This document shows, one piece after another, positions 21,714-31,630 of a stretch of DNA of 34,058 bases. The notes beneath the pieces are model-generated. The model saw only the letters and a list, made by a program, of their open reading frames with translations. It did not search any database and was not told where the DNA came from. This DNA comes from Bacteroidales bacterium (GTDB lineage Bacteria; Bacteroidota; Bacteroidia; Bacteroidales; WCHB1-69): the NCBI GenBank assembly GCA_024400785.1, contig JAKSME010000009.1, positions 1 to 34,058 of the forward strand, given 5' to 3'. The position numbers and the translations under genes were made by a program. The stretch's first letter is position 1. Each line of letters begins with the position of its first letter.

Positions 21714-22169
21714 TCAATTGCCCAAATCGGACATGAATTTGATCTTCATAATGCGAATTTCTTCCATTGAATATTCGTCCTCACCAAGCTCGGCAAGCGC
21801 GTCTTCGACGGAGTCGGATTCCGCATTGGCGAAGTAGTCGAGGATGTCTTCCTGATGGTAGGGTTCGATGTATTCTTCGATATAGTAGTCAATATCCAGC
21901 TTGGTACCGGAAGACCCGATGCTTTCGATTTCAGTCAGCAGCTCATCCATGTCCAAGCCCTTGGCGATGGCAATGTCCTCAAAATTGAGTTTTCTGTCGA
22001 TATTCTGGATGATATAAACCTTCAGAGCGGATTTATTGATGACGGACTTAACCACAAAGTCCTGCGGACGTTCGATTTCGTTATCTTCGACATATTTTTT
22101 GATGAGTTCGATAAACGGTTGTCCATACTTTTGTGCTTTTCCTGCTCCGACACCGCTGATATGCGTCAT
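21714..22169 (-). CDS. recQ: RecQ C-terminal segment (second half of HRDC plus tail), after an in-frame TAA
   Basis: 151 codons starting with ATG immediately after the stop of the main recQ frame and in the same frame. THISGVGAGKAQKYGQPFIELIKKY is the second half of the HRDC domain, with the helix-hairpin GVGAGKA; VKSVINKSALKVYIIQNIDRK, LDMDELLTEIESI and GTKLDIDYYI follow as in the C-terminal tail of complete Bacteroidota RecQ proteins. Joined, the two parts give about 731 residues, the expected length. It may be a separate polypeptide made by re-initiation, a dead remnant, or the result of one wrong base in the assembly. The absence of other stops or frameshifts argues that the break is recent or erroneous. 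Confidence 0.75.
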   Translation of the reverse strand: MTHISGVGAGKAQKYGQPFIELIKKYVEDNEIERPQDFVVKSVINKSALKVYIIQNIDRKLNFEDIAIAKGLDMDELLTEIESIGSSGTKLDIDYYIEEYIEPYHQEDILDYFANAESDSVEDALAELGEDEYSMEEIRIMKIKFMSDLGN

Positions 22170-23909
22170 TTACTCTATCGTGGTCGGATATTGCGTACAC
22201 ATATCTTCCAAGGACGGGTCCTGGAAAATGACGAATGGTGGAATGTTTTCGCGTTGCGCGATGGTTTTCCGCAAATCTTTCAACAAAGAGAACAGTATGT
22301 TGTCGATAGCCTCGCCCTTGTTGGGTACGATTTCCTCATCCACGTCGTCATCTTGCTCTTCACTCACCGGTTTTGCAATCTGGATGGCATACGGATTGCG
22401 CAAATAACGTTCACCTTTCTTCGTGATTTTCAACAGTCCGTAATTCTCCACATCCTTCACCACCAATTCATCAAAAATGGCCAAACGAATGACATTAGAC
22501 CAGAATTTGGCATCAAATTCCTCTCCCTCTCCAAACTGTTTCAGCTCATGGTGTTTGAATTTCTTGACAGAAGTGGTTTTGTTCCCGGTTAAAATGTCAA
22601 CTATGTGGTCTTCTTTGAACTGTTGTTTTACAGTCTGAATGACTTCAATGGCCAGTTGGATTTGTTCTGAAGCGTTCATTTTAGGTTTCGGATGACAGCA
22701 GTTATCGCAATTGTGGCAGTTCTCTTCCTCGTAATTTTCTCCGAAATAGTGTAATAGGTGCTTGCGGCGGCAGCTGGTGGATTCTGCGTAAGCGGCAGTT
22801 TCTGCAAGTAACTGTTTGACAATTTCCTGCTCTGCAACGGCTTTTTTTGTAGAGAATTTCTCCAGTTTGTATAGGTCTTTATAGTCATAAAAAGCAATAC
22901 ATTTGCCTTCGCCATCATCGCGACCGGCGCGACCGGTTTCCTGATAGTAACCTTCCAAGCTCTTGGGCATGTCATAGTGGATGACGAATCGGACATCGGG
23001 CTTGTCGATGCCCATGCCGAAAGCGATGGTAGCGACTATGACTTCAGCTTTTTCCATCAAAAATGCGTCTTGATTTTCCACACGGGTTTTAGAATCAAGG
23101 CCGGCGTGATAAGGTAGTGCACGGATCTTGTTCACTTGCAAAAAGCTGGCGAATTCTTCCACCTTCTTTCGGCTCAAACAATAAATAATGCCGGATTTTC
23201 CGGGATTGTCCTTGATGAATTTCACGATTTCCTTGTCCACGTCTTTGGTCTTTTCGCGAATCTCATAATAGAGGTTGGGACGGTTGAACGAGGAAATGAA
23301 CACCTCCGCATTGTCCATGCCCAAATTCTTCTGAATATCGTTTTGGACCTTAGGAGTTGCGGTGGCAGTCAGCGCAATAACGGGCACTTTGGTGCCGATG
23401 GCATCTATGATGGACCGAATGCGCCGATATTCCGGACGGAAGTCATGGCCCCATTCAGAAATACAATGGGCCTCATCGATGGCGTAGAATGAAATGTTGA
23501 TGGCTTTGAAGAAGTCTACGTTTTCCTCCTTGGTAAGGGACTCGGGCGCCACATAGAGCAGCTTGGTTTTTCCGCTCAGCAAGTCTTCACGCACCGTGTT
23601 GATTTCAGCTTTTGAAAGTGAGGAATTCAGGAAGTGGGCCACACCGCTTTCAGTACTGTAATTGCGGATGGCGTCGACTTGGTTTTTCATCAATGCGATG
23701 AGGGGGGAAATGATGATGGCCGTTCCCTCACTCATCAATGCGGGCAGCTGGTAGCACATGGATTTTCCTCCGCCTGTGGGCATGATGACAAAACAATCTT
23801 TCCCATTCAATAATGCTTTAATAATCTCCAACTGGTTGCCTTTGAACTGACTAAAGCCGAAGATTTTTTTCAACATCTTCTTGATGTCCTTTTCCGTGAA
23901 CTTCTGCAT
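22170..23909 (-). CDS. recQ: ATP-dependent DNA helicase RecQ, cut within HRDC by an in-frame TAA
   Basis: 579 residues. Walker A is MPTGGGKS at 43-50, the DEAH box lies at 145-148, motif VI is QETGRAGRD, and the zinc-binding cysteines are in CRRKHLLHYF and NCHNCDNCC. The winged-helix RQC region follows (about 405-500), then the first part of the HRDC domain (LLKDLRKTIAQRENIPPF, DPSLEDMCTQYPTTIE). The frame ends at TAA 22172-22170, where homologues continue with an acidic residue and the rest of HRDC. Helicase and RQC domains are complete, so the shortened protein could still unwind DNA. The promoter box is at 23984-23991, and a 13-bp hairpin (23944-23973) lies in the leader. Confidence 0.88.
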   Translation of the reverse strand: MQKFTEKDIKKMLKKIFGFSQFKGNQLEIIKALLNGKDCFVIMPTGGGKSMCYQLPALMSEGTAIIISPLIALMKNQVDAIRNYSTESGVAHFLNSSLSKAEINTVREDLLSGKTKLLYVAPESLTKEENVDFFKAINISFYAIDEAHCISEWGHDFRPEYRRIRSIIDAIGTKVPVIALTATATPKVQNDIQKNLGMDNAEVFISSFNRPNLYYEIREKTKDVDKEIVKFIKDNPGKSGIIYCLSRKKVEEFASFLQVNKIRALPYHAGLDSKTRVENQDAFLMEKAEVIVATIAFGMGIDKPDVRFVIHYDMPKSLEGYYQETGRAGRDDGEGKCIAFYDYKDLYKLEKFSTKKAVAEQEIVKQLLAETAAYAESTSCRRKHLLHYFGENYEEENCHNCDNCCHPKPKMNASEQIQLAIEVIQTVKQQFKEDHIVDILTGNKTTSVKKFKHHELKQFGEGEEFDAKFWSNVIRLAIFDELVVKDVENYGLLKITKKGERYLRNPYAIQIAKPVSEEQDDDVDEEIVPNKGEAIDNILFSLLKDLRKTIAQRENIPPFVIFQDPSLEDMCTQYPTTIE

Positions 23910-25105: not shown

Positions 25106-26608
25106 TTATCGGGTAATTCCACCGCCTGAAGGAGTTCCCAAGCGAGCCATTGCGCAACGGAATCCGATGTATTTAGTAGATTCATCTTCTTCGAGATAAC
25201 GGCGATGGCCGGGAGCGGCATAGTATTGAGGATCAATCCAAGAGCCACCTTTGTAAACTCTTGAGTGGTCGCCAACCATTGAATATTCATAATTGGTACC
25301 GGTTTCCTTCGGGTACATGGTTGTGGTAGCGTCGCTGGAGGTTTTCGTCCAGTCTTCGGTATTCAGCTGTGATGCCCAATCGCCATCGAGATAGTTGATG
25401 TTGTCTGCAGAGCGGTAGTTTCTTCTTCTGTCGTTTTTGAAGTCTGAAACGGGAACCATTGGGATTTTACCCACGCTGTCACGGTCTTCAACCATACCAG
25501 AACCATCATCCAAAAGTTTCATGGTTTCATAGTAGTTGCCACGGAACGGGTTGAATTCGTATACATCGTCATGAGAGGTTTGTCTGTAAACGTCCATTAC
25601 CCATTCAGCCACGTTGCCGCCCATGTTGTAGAGGCCAAAGTCATTCGGCCAATATGAGTTAACGGGGGCTGGTATATCGGAAGCGTCGTTGAGGTAACCG
25701 GCAACACCCATGAGGTCACCACGACCGCGGCGGGTATTGGCTACAAAGTCGCCATAGTAGTGTTTGTCATCGGTACGTGTATAGTGGCCGTTCCAAGGAT
25801 AAAGTTTTCTTTCCAAAACACGTTCGTTGAGGGTATTGCCAATCAAAGCGTAAGCGGCATATTCCCATTCAGCTTCCGTGGGGAGGCGGTAACGCGGCAG
25901 AAGGATACCATCTTCCATCTTCACGTTACGATAGTCACCGGTAGAAATATTGGTAAGGCGGTTGTCGGTTTCCATTTCGTATGAGTCATACACGAGGTAG
26001 GCATCGGTGCTGAAATAGAGTTCCGGTGACGGGTCAGGATTCCAATCAATGAAGCCCATATCCACCAAAATCTGTTCATTCACACGGTCGGTACGCCATG
26101 CAGCGTAGTTGGCAGCCTGCAACCAATTAACACCAACAACCGGATAATGGTTGTATGCGGGATATCTGAAATAGTATTCCACCTGAGGTTCCGCGTACGT
26201 CAATTTTTCACGCCAAACGTTTTCATCGGGGCGGGCCTCGTCAACGATGGTTGTAAGGTCAGCGGGCAGGAAGACGCGTTCCAACCAATACAGATACTCA
26301 CGATAATCAAGATTGCTGATTTCACATTCGTCCATGTAAAATGAGGAAATAGTCACAAGACGAGCATTGTTACCCCATTCATACATAACATCTTCTTCAA
26401 CACGGCCGAAAGTGAATGTTCCACCTTCTATCAAAACAAGGCCAGGACCGGTGGCTTGTTCCACAAATGGATAAACTTCAAAACCGCCATTTTCTGCATT
26501 GTTATATTCCCAGCCCGTAGTGCTTGAATATTCTTTTTTACAGGAAGAAAAAAGCAATGCAACTGCAGCAACCAGCATCAAACCGGAAATTCTTGTCATC
26601 TTCTTCAT
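25106..26608 (-). CDS. gldJ: T9SS/gliding lipoprotein GldJ
   Basis: 500 residues. A lipoprotein signal peptide ends in LLFSSCKK (lipidated Cys near 23). Then SSTTGWEYN, GGFEVYPFVEQATGPGLVLIEGGTFTFGRVEEDVMYEW and SFYMDECEISNLDYREYL lead into the SUMF1/formylglycine-generating-enzyme-like fold; RLPTEAEWEYAA, NDFGLYNMGGNVAEWV and VYKGGSWIDPQYY are hallmark segments. The pattern GPGLVLIEGGTFTFG with the long insertion fits GldJ better than GldK/PorK. GldJ acts in the periplasm with the GldK/L/M/N motor and is needed to stabilise GldK. Active-site cysteines of true FGE enzymes are not present in the usual place, so it is structural. A PorP/SprF-type gene precedes it by 50 bases. Confidence 0.9.
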   Translation of the reverse strand: MKKMTRISGLMLVAAVALLFSSCKKEYSSTTGWEYNNAENGGFEVYPFVEQATGPGLVLIEGGTFTFGRVEEDVMYEWGNNARLVTISSFYMDECEISNLDYREYLYWLERVFLPADLTTIVDEARPDENVWREKLTYAEPQVEYYFRYPAYNHYPVVGVNWLQAANYAAWRTDRVNEQILVDMGFIDWNPDPSPELYFSTDAYLVYDSYEMETDNRLTNISTGDYRNVKMEDGILLPRYRLPTEAEWEYAAYALIGNTLNERVLERKLYPWNGHYTRTDDKHYYGDFVANTRRGRGDLMGVAGYLNDASDIPAPVNSYWPNDFGLYNMGGNVAEWVMDVYRQTSHDDVYEFNPFRGNYYETMKLLDDGSGMVEDRDSVGKIPMVPVSDFKNDRRRNYRSADNINYLDGDWASQLNTEDWTKTSSDATTTMYPKETGTNYEYSMVGDHSRVYKGGSWIDPQYYAAPGHRRYLEEDESTKYIGFRCAMARLGTPSGGGITR

Positions 26609-26658
26609 CTTGGTAAAATTTATAGTTGTTAACGTGGTTTTTTCAATATTATTTTAGA

Positions 26659-27645
26659 TTAGAATGAAGGACATTGTAAGTCTTTCATCACACGGTGTCT
26701 TTCAGGACAAGGCAGCATCACTTGCAGGGAGACTTCGTGAGCGCCGCCAGAAAGGTTGGCCAGCTTGGAAACCGTGAGGTCGTAGGAATATGCCAAACGG
26801 ACTCTTTCGTGCTGCAAACCGAACATAAACACAACGGCATCCGGATTTCTCAGGTTCTGACGGAACCAAACACCCAAAACGAATGGGTAGTAGTTCAAGT
26901 AGAGACCATAGTTGAAATAATGGAATTCCATCTGGTGTTGGTAAATAATATTCGGGCTGATGGAGATATCGCCGAAGGAACGGCTTTTACGGCTACGGCG
27001 TTTGATGTCGAAATAACCACCAACGTGGGCAGTCCATTTAATAGGCAGACGGCTTACTGAAATGAAACCTTCATAGGGACGAGTCACGTGGTTGGCGGCG
27101 AAGCCGAAATAGAAATTCTTGGTATAGCCAATGAAACCGGCAGAGAAGTCTGCAATAGCTTTGGACTGTTTATCGGGAGCAGTTTCATTGGTTTCATATA
27201 CGAAACCGTACTTCGGGTCAATCATATCGCCAAAGGTGAGTTTGCTCCAATTCAAACTTTTCTGTTGGAAAGTGGCCTGCAATGCGAATCGCATGCTGAA
27301 TTTGCGAGAGACTTTCAATTTATAAGAATAAATCAAACTTGCGGAATAGGTGTTGATTGTACCTTGACCTTGGCGGTCTCCCATGAAAAGAACTCCGATA
27401 CCACCGGCCAGCTTGTCGAAATGCTGGTCGTAAGATGCGGAATAAGTAACGAATGTGCCATGAACATTGGGCCATTGGTCGCGAAAATGTGCCGTAATAC
27501 GCGGGCAGACATTAGTACCAGCGAAGGCGGGATTCAGGTACAATGGGTTAGCATAAAATTGGGAAAAGTGAGGATCTTGTGCAGAAACATTCATACTGCT
27601 CAACATCAGCAGCAAAAGTCCCCATACGCAAATGATCTTTTTCAT
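26659..27645 (-). CDS. PorP/SprF-family outer-membrane protein
   Basis: 328 residues. Signal peptide ends MNVSAQ, followed directly by DPHFSQFYANPLYLNPAFAG, the family signature, and LTFGDMIDPKYGF and further strands of a 12-14-stranded barrel of the PorP/SprF type. These proteins cooperate with the T9SS; some members bind the PorE or the sorting domain of cargo (type B) at the outer membrane. Many paralogues exist in a genome, so calling it PorP itself would need a comparison. It has its own -7 box (27682-27689) and lies back-to-back with porU. Confidence 0.88.
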   Translation of the reverse strand: MKKIICVWGLLLLMLSSMNVSAQDPHFSQFYANPLYLNPAFAGTNVCPRITAHFRDQWPNVHGTFVTYSASYDQHFDKLAGGIGVLFMGDRQGQGTINTYSASLIYSYKLKVSRKFSMRFALQATFQQKSLNWSKLTFGDMIDPKYGFVYETNETAPDKQSKAIADFSAGFIGYTKNFYFGFAANHVTRPYEGFISVSRLPIKWTAHVGGYFDIKRRSRKSRSFGDISISPNIIYQHQMEFHYFNYGLYLNYYPFVLGVWFRQNLRNPDAVVFMFGLQHERVRLAYSYDLTVSKLANLSGGAHEVSLQVMLPCPERHRVMKDLQCPSF

Positions 27646-27681
27646 ATCCTTTGTTTTTATCCTTAAAATCTATGAAGTGTG

Positions 27682-27689
27682 CAAAAATA
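27682..27689 (-). promoter_or_regulatory. -7 box for the PorP/SprF-gldJ unit
   Basis: Minus strand TATTTTTG followed by CAC, matching TAnnTTTG, 37 bases before the start codon at 27645. Confidence 0.6.
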
Positions 27690-27811
27690 CGATTTTATAA
27701 TGACTCTTTACGTTATTTTTTATAAAAAGTTATCAACATTTTTCGTTTTTTGCAATTTTATATTTTACAATTCGTTTATCAAGTGTTTTTCGCAACTCTA
27801 AATAACGAAAC

Positions 27812-30800
27812 ATGAAACGATTTTCTTGGGTGATTTTTTCCACTTTTTTGATATTTTTTTTTCAACATACTGATAATCAAGCACAAAATATTCAAAAAAA
27901 CATCAATATTCACTGGCTTTCTAATCTAATTTACGAAGAAAGCGAAGATGAGAAAACAGAATATTTATTTTTTGAAGGAGCTGTTGGCGATGAGCAATTC
28001 CCCAGTCTGCCCTCCTTTTACACCCATTTTCCAGTCAATTCTGATTTTTCCGCCTACGATGTCAAAATTGCCAATGCGGTTTTCGAGCCCATGACCGAGC
28101 AAGAAGTGACACTTATTCCGCAAAGCTTCTCTCCAAACGAACTCGAGATTACAACCCAAACGGTTTATGAAAAGAAGAAACCCTATCTCGCTATTTCCTT
28201 TATTCCCATTAGAAAAAACGGTGTGAAATTCGAGAAATTGACCTCTGTCACGCTCGAAATCACAGGTAAAGATGCACGCAAATCTCCCGCCGCGCCTAAG
28301 TCTTACGCCACTCATTCCGCGCTTCAAAACGGAAGCTGGTATCGCATAACCGTTTCACAAACAGGTGTTTATAAAGTAACTTACGATGACTTGAACCGTC
28401 TGGGAATGCCCGTCTCCAGTCTATCCTCCGACAACCTTTCTATCTTCGGAAATGGTGGTGGCATGTTGCCGGAAGCCAACGCAGAGTTCCGCTACGACGA
28501 CATCCAGGAATTGCCCATCGAAATGCACGATGGCGGTGACCACAGTTTCGATGCCGGCGACTATTTTCTTTTTTATGCAGAAGGTCCGCATAGTTGGACC
28601 TACATTCCTTCCGATCAGAATTTCACCCACAACTTCAACCTCTATGCGACGACGGCTTCCTATTTCATCACGGCAACGCCCAATGTGGGTTCTAAACTGC
28701 GCATTACCACAGAAGACAATTCGACTTTAACCGCCACATCTGTTGCCACAACTTACACTGATTATGGATTTTTCGAAGAAGACAAATTCAATTTGGGAGA
28801 GGGCGGCCGAGCATGGTTTGGCGACAAATTTGATGCCACCACTGCCAAAAATTACACAATTTCGCTTCCTGCCTTCCCCGTTTCCCCTTTGCGCCTAACT
28901 ACCAGTGTAGGAGCTACTTCTGCAAGATATTCATCTTTTTCAATAAATATCAATGGACAAAATGTTGGTTCAATATCCGTTGATGCGTCTGGTGACTATT
29001 TGGCCAAAACCAACTCCCGCGAATTTTCTTTCAACACCACAGGCGGGAATGTAGCCATTTCCCTCAGCTATTCAAAACCCCTTTCTTCCTCGGTGGGCTA
29101 CCTCAACTTCTTAGAATGGCAGGTGGATGCTCAATTGCGGGCCGGTAGTGGGCAAACTCCTTTCTGCAATACGCAAACCATTGGTAACAATAGAGTTACA
29201 CAGTTCGACATTGCCAACTTTTCCAATGGCATGAAGGTTTGGGATGTAACTTCCATTCCAAACGTAAAACAAATGAACGGCACTCTTTCCGGTGGCACCT
29301 TCTCTTTCAAAGCTGCTACCGATTCTTTACGCAAATTCTTGATTTTCAAAGATGTTAACGCAATGTCTGTTACTCCGGTCGGGAAAATCAACAATCAAGA
29401 TTTGCACGGCAGCAGTTTGGCAGACATGGTCATCATTTCCCATCCCGACTTTTTACCGCAAGCGGAAAGGCTGGCTGAATTTCGCCGCAACCACGACGGA
29501 TTGAGTGTGAAAATCGTTACTCCGCAGCAAGTTTATAACGAATTTTCAAGTGGCGAACAAGACGTTTGCGCCATTCGCGACTACATGCGTATGATTTACG
29601 ACAAAACCAACGGACAACAACCCAAATACCTCCTGCTTTTCGGCCGGCCGTCGTACGATTACCGTCAGATTGAGGGGAAATGCAAACTATATGTACCCAA
29701 TTATCAATGCTATACAAACATCAAGACTGATAATTTCAAAGCGAACGATGACTTTTTCGGACTTTTAGATGAAGATGAGGGTAACAGCTGCATTGGCAGA
29801 ACGGTTGATATTGCCATCGGACGATTTCCCGTCAGCAATGGCAGCCAGGCTCAAATTGCAGTTGATAAGACCATTAACTATGCTTCTACCGCCATTTTAG
29901 GTGCCAACACCCAAACCTGCAACTACGGAGACTGGAAAAACACGGCTGCTTTCGTTGCCGATGACGAGAACTGGAATTGCCACGTCAACACAGCGGAAGC
30001 GACCACAAATATTGCTCAAAATGAGAATACAAATCTCAACATTGAGAAAATCTACTTAGATGCCTACCAACAGATAACTTACTCTTCTTCAGCTCGTTAT
30101 CCGGAAGTCACCACAGCCATCAACAACCGTATGAACAAAGGGTGTCTGCTTTTTACCTACATTGGCCATGGTGGGAAATACGGTTGGGCACACGAAAGAA
30201 TTGTCGAACTCACCGACATCAACCGATGGAGCAACAAGTACAATCTACCCTGGATGTTCACGATGACCTGTGAATTTGGTTGGTGCGACCGTTCCTTTGA
30301 TTCCCCGGCCGAACTAGTATTTTTGAATGCCAACGGTGGTGCGGCAGGCATGGTCAGCACCATGCGAACCGCCTTTACCGTCGGCAACCACAACTACATT
30401 ACTGGCTTGTATAACAACATTTTCCGAACCGAAAACGGAAATGTGAAACGCTTAGGCGAGACACACCGTTTGGCCAAAAACGCTGGCGGCGGCAACTGCG
30501 GGGATTACAACATGATTTATGTCATCGGAGACCCTGCAATGTCTCTGGCCCTGCCCCGTTATGTGGTAGTAACCGACTCCATCAACGGAACCGCTGCAGA
30601 TGAATTTTCCGACACGCTGAAGGCACTTTCTCGCGTGCATGTCTGCGGACACATTGAAGATGGAAACGGCACGATATTGGATGATTTTTCTGGAGGAATT
30701 TATCCTTCTATTTATGATAAAAAAGTGATTAACAACACTTTACAAAATGACGAAGAAAGTTTATACCTTGAATTTGAAGTCCAAAAAAACATTCTTTTCA

Positions 30801-31630
30801 AAGGAAATGTTACGGTAAACAACGGTCATTTCAACTACTCATTCATTTTGCCAAAAGACATCAATTATGCCTACGGACTTGGTAAAATGAGCTACTATGC
30901 AAACAGCGACAATGCCGATGCCGCCGGAACGTACAATCGAGCCATCATCGGGGGAATGAGCGATGATAGCATCACCGATACTCATGGCCCTGACATTGAA
31001 TTGTTTATGAACGATGAAAAATTTGTCAACGGAGGAACCGTGAACCCCTTCCCCACCCTTTTGGTGAAATTGAAAGATGAATATGGGATTAACACAACGG
31101 GCAACGGCATCGGACACGACTTGGTAGCCATTTTAGATGATGGCCACCAAATCATCTTAAACAATTACTACGAAGCAGAACGTGACAGTTTTAACTGCGG
31201 AACCGTCCGCTATCCATTTGAAAATCTATCACTTGGACAGCACAAACTCAAAGTGAGAGGATGGGATATTTTGAATAATGTTTCCGAGAGCGAATTGGAA
31301 TTTGTGGTTGTCTCCGATGAAGGTTTGGCATTGGACCACGTTCTCAACTATCCTAATCCGTTCACCACACACACTTCTTTTTACTTCGAACACAACCGCC
31401 CAGGCGAAGCCCTCGACATCCTGGTCACCGTTTACACCATTTCAGGGAAAGTGGTTCGCACACTTGAATCGCACCAATGCAACCAAGGTTTCAGAAGTGA
31501 TCCGATAGAGTGGGACGGATTGGATGATTTTGGCGACAAAATCGGCAAAGGCACCTACCTTTACCGCTTGCGCGTTCGAACGGCGAACGGCGAACAATCG
31601 GAAAAAATAGAAAAGATTGTAATTCTGTAA
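27812..31630 (+). CDS. porU: T9SS C-terminal signal sortase PorU
   Basis: 1272 residues. A signal peptide (first about 25) is followed by a long beta-rich N-terminal region, then the C25 gingipain-like peptidase domain (about 530-910). It has DMVIISHPDFL, QPKYLLLFGRPSYDYR, TYIGHGGKYGWAHERI with catalytic His786 and TMTCEFGWCD with Cys820. The C-terminal 95 residues (YPNPFTTHTSFYFEHN to IVIL) are a T9SS-type domain. PorU removes the sorting domain of exported proteins and joins them to anionic LPS at the cell surface. The His/Cys pair is intact. It lies divergent from PorP/SprF-gldJ and converges with asd at one base distance. porV, often beside porU, is not next to it. Confidence 0.93.
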   Translation: MKRFSWVIFSTFLIFFFQHTDNQAQNIQKNINIHWLSNLIYEESEDEKTEYLFFEGAVGDEQFPSLPSFYTHFPVNSDFSAYDVKIANAVFEPMTEQEVTLIPQSFSPNELEITTQTVYEKKKPYLAISFIPIRKNGVKFEKLTSVTLEITGKDARKSPAAPKSYATHSALQNGSWYRITVSQTGVYKVTYDDLNRLGMPVSSLSSDNLSIFGNGGGMLPEANAEFRYDDIQELPIEMHDGGDHSFDAGDYFLFYAEGPHSWTYIPSDQNFTHNFNLYATTASYFITATPNVGSKLRITTEDNSTLTATSVATTYTDYGFFEEDKFNLGEGGRAWFGDKFDATTAKNYTISLPAFPVSPLRLTTSVGATSARYSSFSININGQNVGSISVDASGDYLAKTNSREFSFNTTGGNVAISLSYSKPLSSSVGYLNFLEWQVDAQLRAGSGQTPFCNTQTIGNNRVTQFDIANFSNGMKVWDVTSIPNVKQMNGTLSGGTFSFKAATDSLRKFLIFKDVNAMSVTPVGKINNQDLHGSSLADMVIISHPDFLPQAERLAEFRRNHDGLSVKIVTPQQVYNEFSSGEQDVCAIRDYMRMIYDKTNGQQPKYLLLFGRPSYDYRQIEGKCKLYVPNYQCYTNIKTDNFKANDDFFGLLDEDEGNSCIGRTVDIAIGRFPVSNGSQAQIAVDKTINYASTAILGANTQTCNYGDWKNTAAFVADDENWNCHVNTAEATTNIAQNENTNLNIEKIYLDAYQQITYSSSARYPEVTTAINNRMNKGCLLFTYIGHGGKYGWAHERIVELTDINRWSNKYNLPWMFTMTCEFGWCDRSFDSPAELVFLNANGGAAGMVSTMRTAFTVGNHNYITGLYNNIFRTENGNVKRLGETHRLAKNAGGGNCGDYNMIYVIGDPAMSLALPRYVVVTDSINGTAADEFSDTLKALSRVHVCGHIEDGNGTILDDFSGGIYPSIYDKKVINNTLQNDEESLYLEFEVQKNILFKGNVTVNNGHFNYSFILPKDINYAYGLGKMSYYANSDNADAAGTYNRAIIGGMSDDSITDTHGPDIELFMNDEKFVNGGTVNPFPTLLVKLKDEYGINTTGNGIGHDLVAILDDGHQIILNNYYEAERDSFNCGTVRYPFENLSLGQHKLKVRGWDILNNVSESELEFVVVSDEGLALDHVLNYPNPFTTHTSFYFEHNRPGEALDILVTVYTISGKVVRTLESHQCNQGFRSDPIEWDGLDDFGDKIGKGTYLYRLRVRTANGEQSEKIEKIVIL

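Follow-up and report, generated by a model that had tools for sequence, protein, structure and literature searches.

The recQ gene on a contig from the draft genome of a gut-type Bacteroidales bacterium is broken by one in-frame stop codon, and the codon that follows it in the same frame is an ATG. This raises the question of whether the cell makes RecQ as two chains, carries a recently truncated helicase, or possesses an ordinary full-length gene in which a single base has been wrongly called. The window analysed here is the whole contig (C169; 34,058 nucleotides, without any N), the second longest among the 25 contigs sampled from its assembly. That assembly comprises 2,135,303 bases in 179 contigs and is 88.83% complete. 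Its nearest named relatives (the best 80 of 117 were retained) are Bacteroidales genomes assembled from metagenomes, and those ranked first bear isolate names that include horse feces and yak, sheep or buffalo rumen; the genome is therefore itself probably a metagenome-assembled one.

Architecture of the interrupted gene

recQ lies on the minus strand at 23909-21714, and inspection of the open reading frames and codons reveals that this frame is open apart from a single TAA (codon 580; 22172-22170) within the region encoding the HRDC domain. The head ORF (23909-22170, of which 23909-22173 are sense codons) encodes 579 amino acids and ends in the codons ATA GAG TAA. An ATG (22169-22167) follows directly in the same frame, forming the motif TAAATG with a distance of 0 between stop and start, and belongs to a tail of 151 codons (22169-21714) that is terminated by a TGA ending at 21714. 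With an X placed at the stop, the frame comprises 731 residues.

In a profile search, the read-through protein contains, in order, the DEAD, Helicase_C, RecQ_Zn_bind, RQC, HRDC and RecQ-1-like_HTH domains. HRDC occupies residues 539-603 (22295-22101, with the stop inside) and covers profile positions 4-68 of 68; it is thus complete. The RecQ-1-like_HTH domain (PF21220) is found at residues 627-677, C-terminal to HRDC. Structure matches agree with this layout: 1wud, an HRDC structure, aligns to residues 533-611, and 3iuo, a solved chain of 122 residues, aligns to the C-terminal domain at residues 609-731. The initial annotation had placed the TAA inside HRDC with the ATG next to it, and had read the 151 codons of the tail as the rest of HRDC and of RecQ. 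The ORF, codon and domain data confirm the first statement, while the second is borne out by the complete HRDC domain of the read-through frame and by relatives that align to it from end to end.

Taken separately, the two pieces fare differently. The head, with the helicase core, zinc-binding and RQC domains, scores 656.1 bits against TIGR01389, above the curated cut-off of 640.2, although its HRDC match reaches only profile position 44 of 68, so that about the first two thirds of the domain are kept. The tail, which carries the remainder of HRDC and the HTH domain, gives no HRDC match by itself in the domain profile search. As assembled, no single chain combines the helicase core, the zinc-binding and RQC domains and a complete HRDC, as a TIGR01389 protein does. 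Compared with bacterial RecQ of this type (TIGR01389; E. coli RecQ, 1oyw, and its HRDC, 1wud), the read-through frame has all domains in the same order, but differs in the TAA at codon 580 and in the RecQ-1-like HTH (PF21220) after HRDC, which is matched by a separate PDB chain, 3iuo.

The ORF downstream of recQ (21609-19624) is one we take to be gyrB, and those at 25106-31630 resemble what are presumably genes of the gliding and type IX secretion group (GldJ/K-like, PorP/SprF-like and PorU-like).

recQ in related genomes

A search of 41 genomes (this one and 40 others) returned a strong recQ match in 38, and an internal stop was present only in the genome under study, none of the other 37 having one. 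Within the genus, 12 of 13 genomes were matched with the same outcome. The read-through frame aligns end to end with recQ of relatives in the genus, with up to 94% identity, and its reality is thus far beyond chance. This alignment extends over all 731 residues; a frameshift is therefore ruled out as the cause and the site is a substitution. One relative's locus (L095) that appeared to be a frameshifted recQ was rejected as such, as it contains a gap of four N, with GAG at the stop column behind the gap. No second genome of the same species is present among the relatives compared, and a search of a plasmid and distant collection with recQ gave 71 records with partial matches, none of them over 80% of the query.

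For the comparison of codons, 109 recQ loci were fetched from two collections and 12 identical copies were dropped, leaving 97 distinct loci. At the stop column these have GAA in 53 cases and GAG in 44; Glu is thus encoded in 97/97, which fits an origin of the TAA by one base change from a Glu codon; the initial annotation had proposed one base change, for example from GAA or CAA. As the alignments show, no relative in the comparison shares the stop. The residue after the stop column is Met in 41 loci and Leu in 56, and the ATG is therefore better regarded as an ordinary inherited residue of the family than as an evolved start. In the bases before the ATG, compared by eye with six relatives, nothing start-like is new except the stop itself.

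Residues of the gene that are absent from all relatives were scored against 96 of them (L095 excluded) at columns covered by more than 60. There are two, the stop and V665G. The latter (codon 665; 21917-21915) is GGG in this genome, whereas relatives have GTN (Val) in 93 cases and ATT or ATC (Ile) in three; it lies within the HTH domain, 85 codons from the stop. The claim that no other lesion is present thus stands for stops and frameshifts, but it does not extend to this missense change. When 14 recQ genes were each set against the others in turn (leave-one-out), this gene had two private changes at invariant columns, each of them radical, while the other 13 had between 0 and 18, with radical ones numbering 0 to 4. 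Judged by this comparison, its number of private changes is not unusual; it is the stop that is unusual.

In comparisons with the two closest relatives dN is low, at 0.036 in both cases for the head; for the tail it amounts to 0.027 and 0.043, and both parts appear to have been under constraint in the past. Full or nearly full saturation of synonymous sites, even against the nearest relative, prevents dN/dS from dating the stop. As regards several lesions or relaxed constraint behind the stop, which a genuine pseudogene would be expected to show, the tail presents these dN values, with synonymous sites at or close to saturation, and one private missense change, V665G.

Internal stops elsewhere in the assembly

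Further lesions were sought in 249,106 bases of the same assembly (the window and 24 other stretches). Lesions were chosen by eye, so that the three now known, recQ included, are a minimum and give no unbiased rate. A list of same-frame ORF pairs and a codon-usage score were too noisy for counting lesions, and the score missed the recQ and ATPase sites. Homology confirmed two further genes that are intact but for one in-frame stop, namely a RelA/SpoT gene and a gene for an AAA ATPase. A candidate nonsense lesion on L124 was rejected, as the sequence is not a gene.

The RelA/SpoT gene (rel; L116, G000:C3, 5541-3292, minus strand; TIGR00691, 611.9 bits) has a TAA at codon 55, where the ten relatives that cover the site have Lys (nine) or Arg (one). 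Close to the stop are I61F, H63Q, L65R and I70V, all departures of this gene at columns that are identical in those ten relatives. These four, out of eight private changes of rel at invariant columns, fall in one 16-codon stretch (binomial ~1e-5, for a stretch chosen post hoc); the stop at codon 55 is left out of these eight, its column not being invariant. Right behind rel (L116, ~3290-3200, minus strand) is an 18-base tandem repeat of about three copies, encoding SRLNG followed by a stop. In another genome of the genus, G011, rel (L165, G011:C129:144-2384) has a different TAA, at codon 170, in a column that is Lys in the other copies covering it; isolated stops thus also occur in another draft of the group.

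The ATPase gene (AAA_14; L115, G000:C2, 13174-14241, plus strand) is interrupted by a TAG at codon 129. Between it and the copy in genome G002, 12 of 1068 bases differ, five of which lie in codons 129-137. The tight clusters of private changes around the rel and ATPase stops look like local base errors in the consensus, going by the aligned sequences, and the rel lesion is probably a patch of such errors. The near-identity of the ATPase gene to the G002 copy contrasts with the ~64-88% DNA identity of longer stretches between the two genomes; a recent transfer or a misplaced contig may be offered as readings of this similarity.

Control alignments indicate how widespread such lesions are. Genes of the assembly were aligned with homologues from G002 and G005 in 48 alignments (20,989 codons), and an internal stop was found in three, namely recQ, rel and the ATPase gene; as the rel and ATPase loci entered the control because of their stops, three of 48 is not an unbiased figure. 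Three stretches taken for their length (L114, L132 and L133) gave 31 alignments and 13,882 codons with zero stops. Within the window, eight alignments (17.9-31.6 kb) contained a stop in recQ only, the other seven genes being clean. If the stops are errors, these are thus not dense, as long stretches and the other genes of the window lack them. In the reverse comparison, the 44 alignments of G002 are free of internal stops, and the 38 of G005 contain one, which is found at column 7, next to an alignment edge. No frameshift-type split was seen among the control alignments.

Stretches of about 25-34 bases on the three long pieces (L132:11093-11126, L114:345-369 and L133:13598-13630) have counterparts, mostly at above 85% identity, on numerous contigs of both G002 and G005, and may represent a short repeat interspersed in genomes of this genus.

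Origin of the stop codon

In-frame nonsense artefacts are a known kind of fault in draft metagenome assemblies. The recQ stop resembles them in being a single substitution, private to one draft, in an assembly with further lesions. It is on balance probable that a consensus base error explains the TAA. The cell's gene would then encode an ordinary full-length RecQ of ~731 amino acids, and one wrong base in the consensus of a fragmented assembly would make a conserved Glu codon read as a stop, presumably through the same base-level error process as the rel and ATPase lesions. This explanation is favoured because the same assembly carries those two lesions amid clustered private changes; further private nonsense codons or clustered changes are what it leads one to expect, and both genes display them. 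Also in its favour are the Glu codon at all 97 loci, the 37 other genomes without an internal stop, the low dN of head and tail, the different stop in rel of G011, and the reverse comparison with G002 and G005. Two observations count against it. Unlike the rel and ATPase stops, that in recQ has no cluster of odd residues beside it, the sole other private residue being 85 codons away. In addition, the 34 kb contig contains no N, and the seven other genes of the window and the 31 alignments of the long stretches are free of stops.

The same absence of an adjoining error cluster, and the same 31 clean alignments, are in favour of a real and recent nonsense mutation, either fixed or segregating in the sampled population. 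This is a distinct possibility, though a less likely one. RecQ would keep its helicase, zinc-binding and RQC domains, with HRDC broken and the HTH domain lost, and the tail would perhaps be drifting. One base change from GAA suffices for such a mutation, and both private residues, the stop and V665G, are located at or behind the stop. Loss of RecQ looks tolerable in this group, since genomes G001 and G022 (estimated to be 97% and 98% complete) display only RecQ-like genes at 38-47% identity and no close orthologue of recQ, and since the genome under study has a second RecQ-like gene, in an open frame, on C67. A third genome without a strong recQ match, G034, reaches a completeness of only 61%, and residues 8-608 are matched there at 41% identity. 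Deletion of HRDC from E. coli RecQ is reported not to abolish the unwinding of DNA, the rate of which HRDC suppresses (PMC4464074), and by analogy a truncated RecQ could keep activity. On the other hand, a real mutation in recQ requires recent nonsense mutations to coexist in rel and the ATPase gene, both amid clustered private changes, and the single missense change of the tail indicates decay only weakly.

Much less probable is a natural two-chain RecQ, in which translation would terminate at the TAA and restart at the adjacent ATG, making the remainder of HRDC and the HTH domain as a separate chain, in the first step of a gene fission. The arrangement does resemble termination-reinitiation coupling in that stop and start are side by side, and reinitiation is reported to need an overlap or a very short distance (PMC10666635; PMC6728339). 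Residues 609-731 have a counterpart in 3iuo, whose solved chain is 122 residues long, and this domain may therefore fold alone. However, the commonest coupled spacings given in PMC10666635 are -4 and -1, while here the distance is 0. Compared with the coupling described in these papers (PMC6728339; PMC10666635), recQ has no overlap, its split is not conserved, and its start is an inherited internal residue. The split is found in none of the relatives compared, neither in the 37 genomes nor at any of the 97 loci with Glu, and Met or Leu occupies the position of the ATG throughout these loci. The cut also falls inside HRDC, itself a small domain, and V665G affects the HTH domain of the tail. In the literature on RecQ and HRDC, no title among the matches listed concerns a bacterial HRDC that is split, an absence of little weight.

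That TAA, or stops generally, are read through or reassigned in this organism was considered because three conserved genes of a single genome have in-frame stops, and was rejected as extremely improbable. Within the 249 kb, frames that span at least 350 codons (counted from stop to stop, and possibly including a few antisense frames) end in TAA 59 times, TGA 14 times and TAG eight times, making TAA the main terminator. Moreover, the replaced residues differ (Glu, Lys and Leu), and the stops are not all of one kind, one being TAG.

The initial annotation had left open a recent nonsense mutation, an assembly error and a natural split at TAAATG. The first two remain, whereas the comparisons lend the third no support, as the split is absent from the relatives compared and the ATG is inherited. 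Intact frames in all close relatives, together with no product from the tail, had been named beforehand as an argument against it and, as far as the frame is concerned, recQ is intact everywhere compared. The split is thus most likely not a biological feature of this recQ, but an ordinary assembly slip or a very recent mutation.

A lone stop in a conserved gene of a draft genome should therefore be checked against relatives, and against other genes of the same assembly, before it is given a biological reading. If the recQ stop is real, it would mean that RecQ was recently truncated within HRDC and that this is tolerated and, if both chains were made, the locus would be a natural experiment on whether the function of HRDC is separable.
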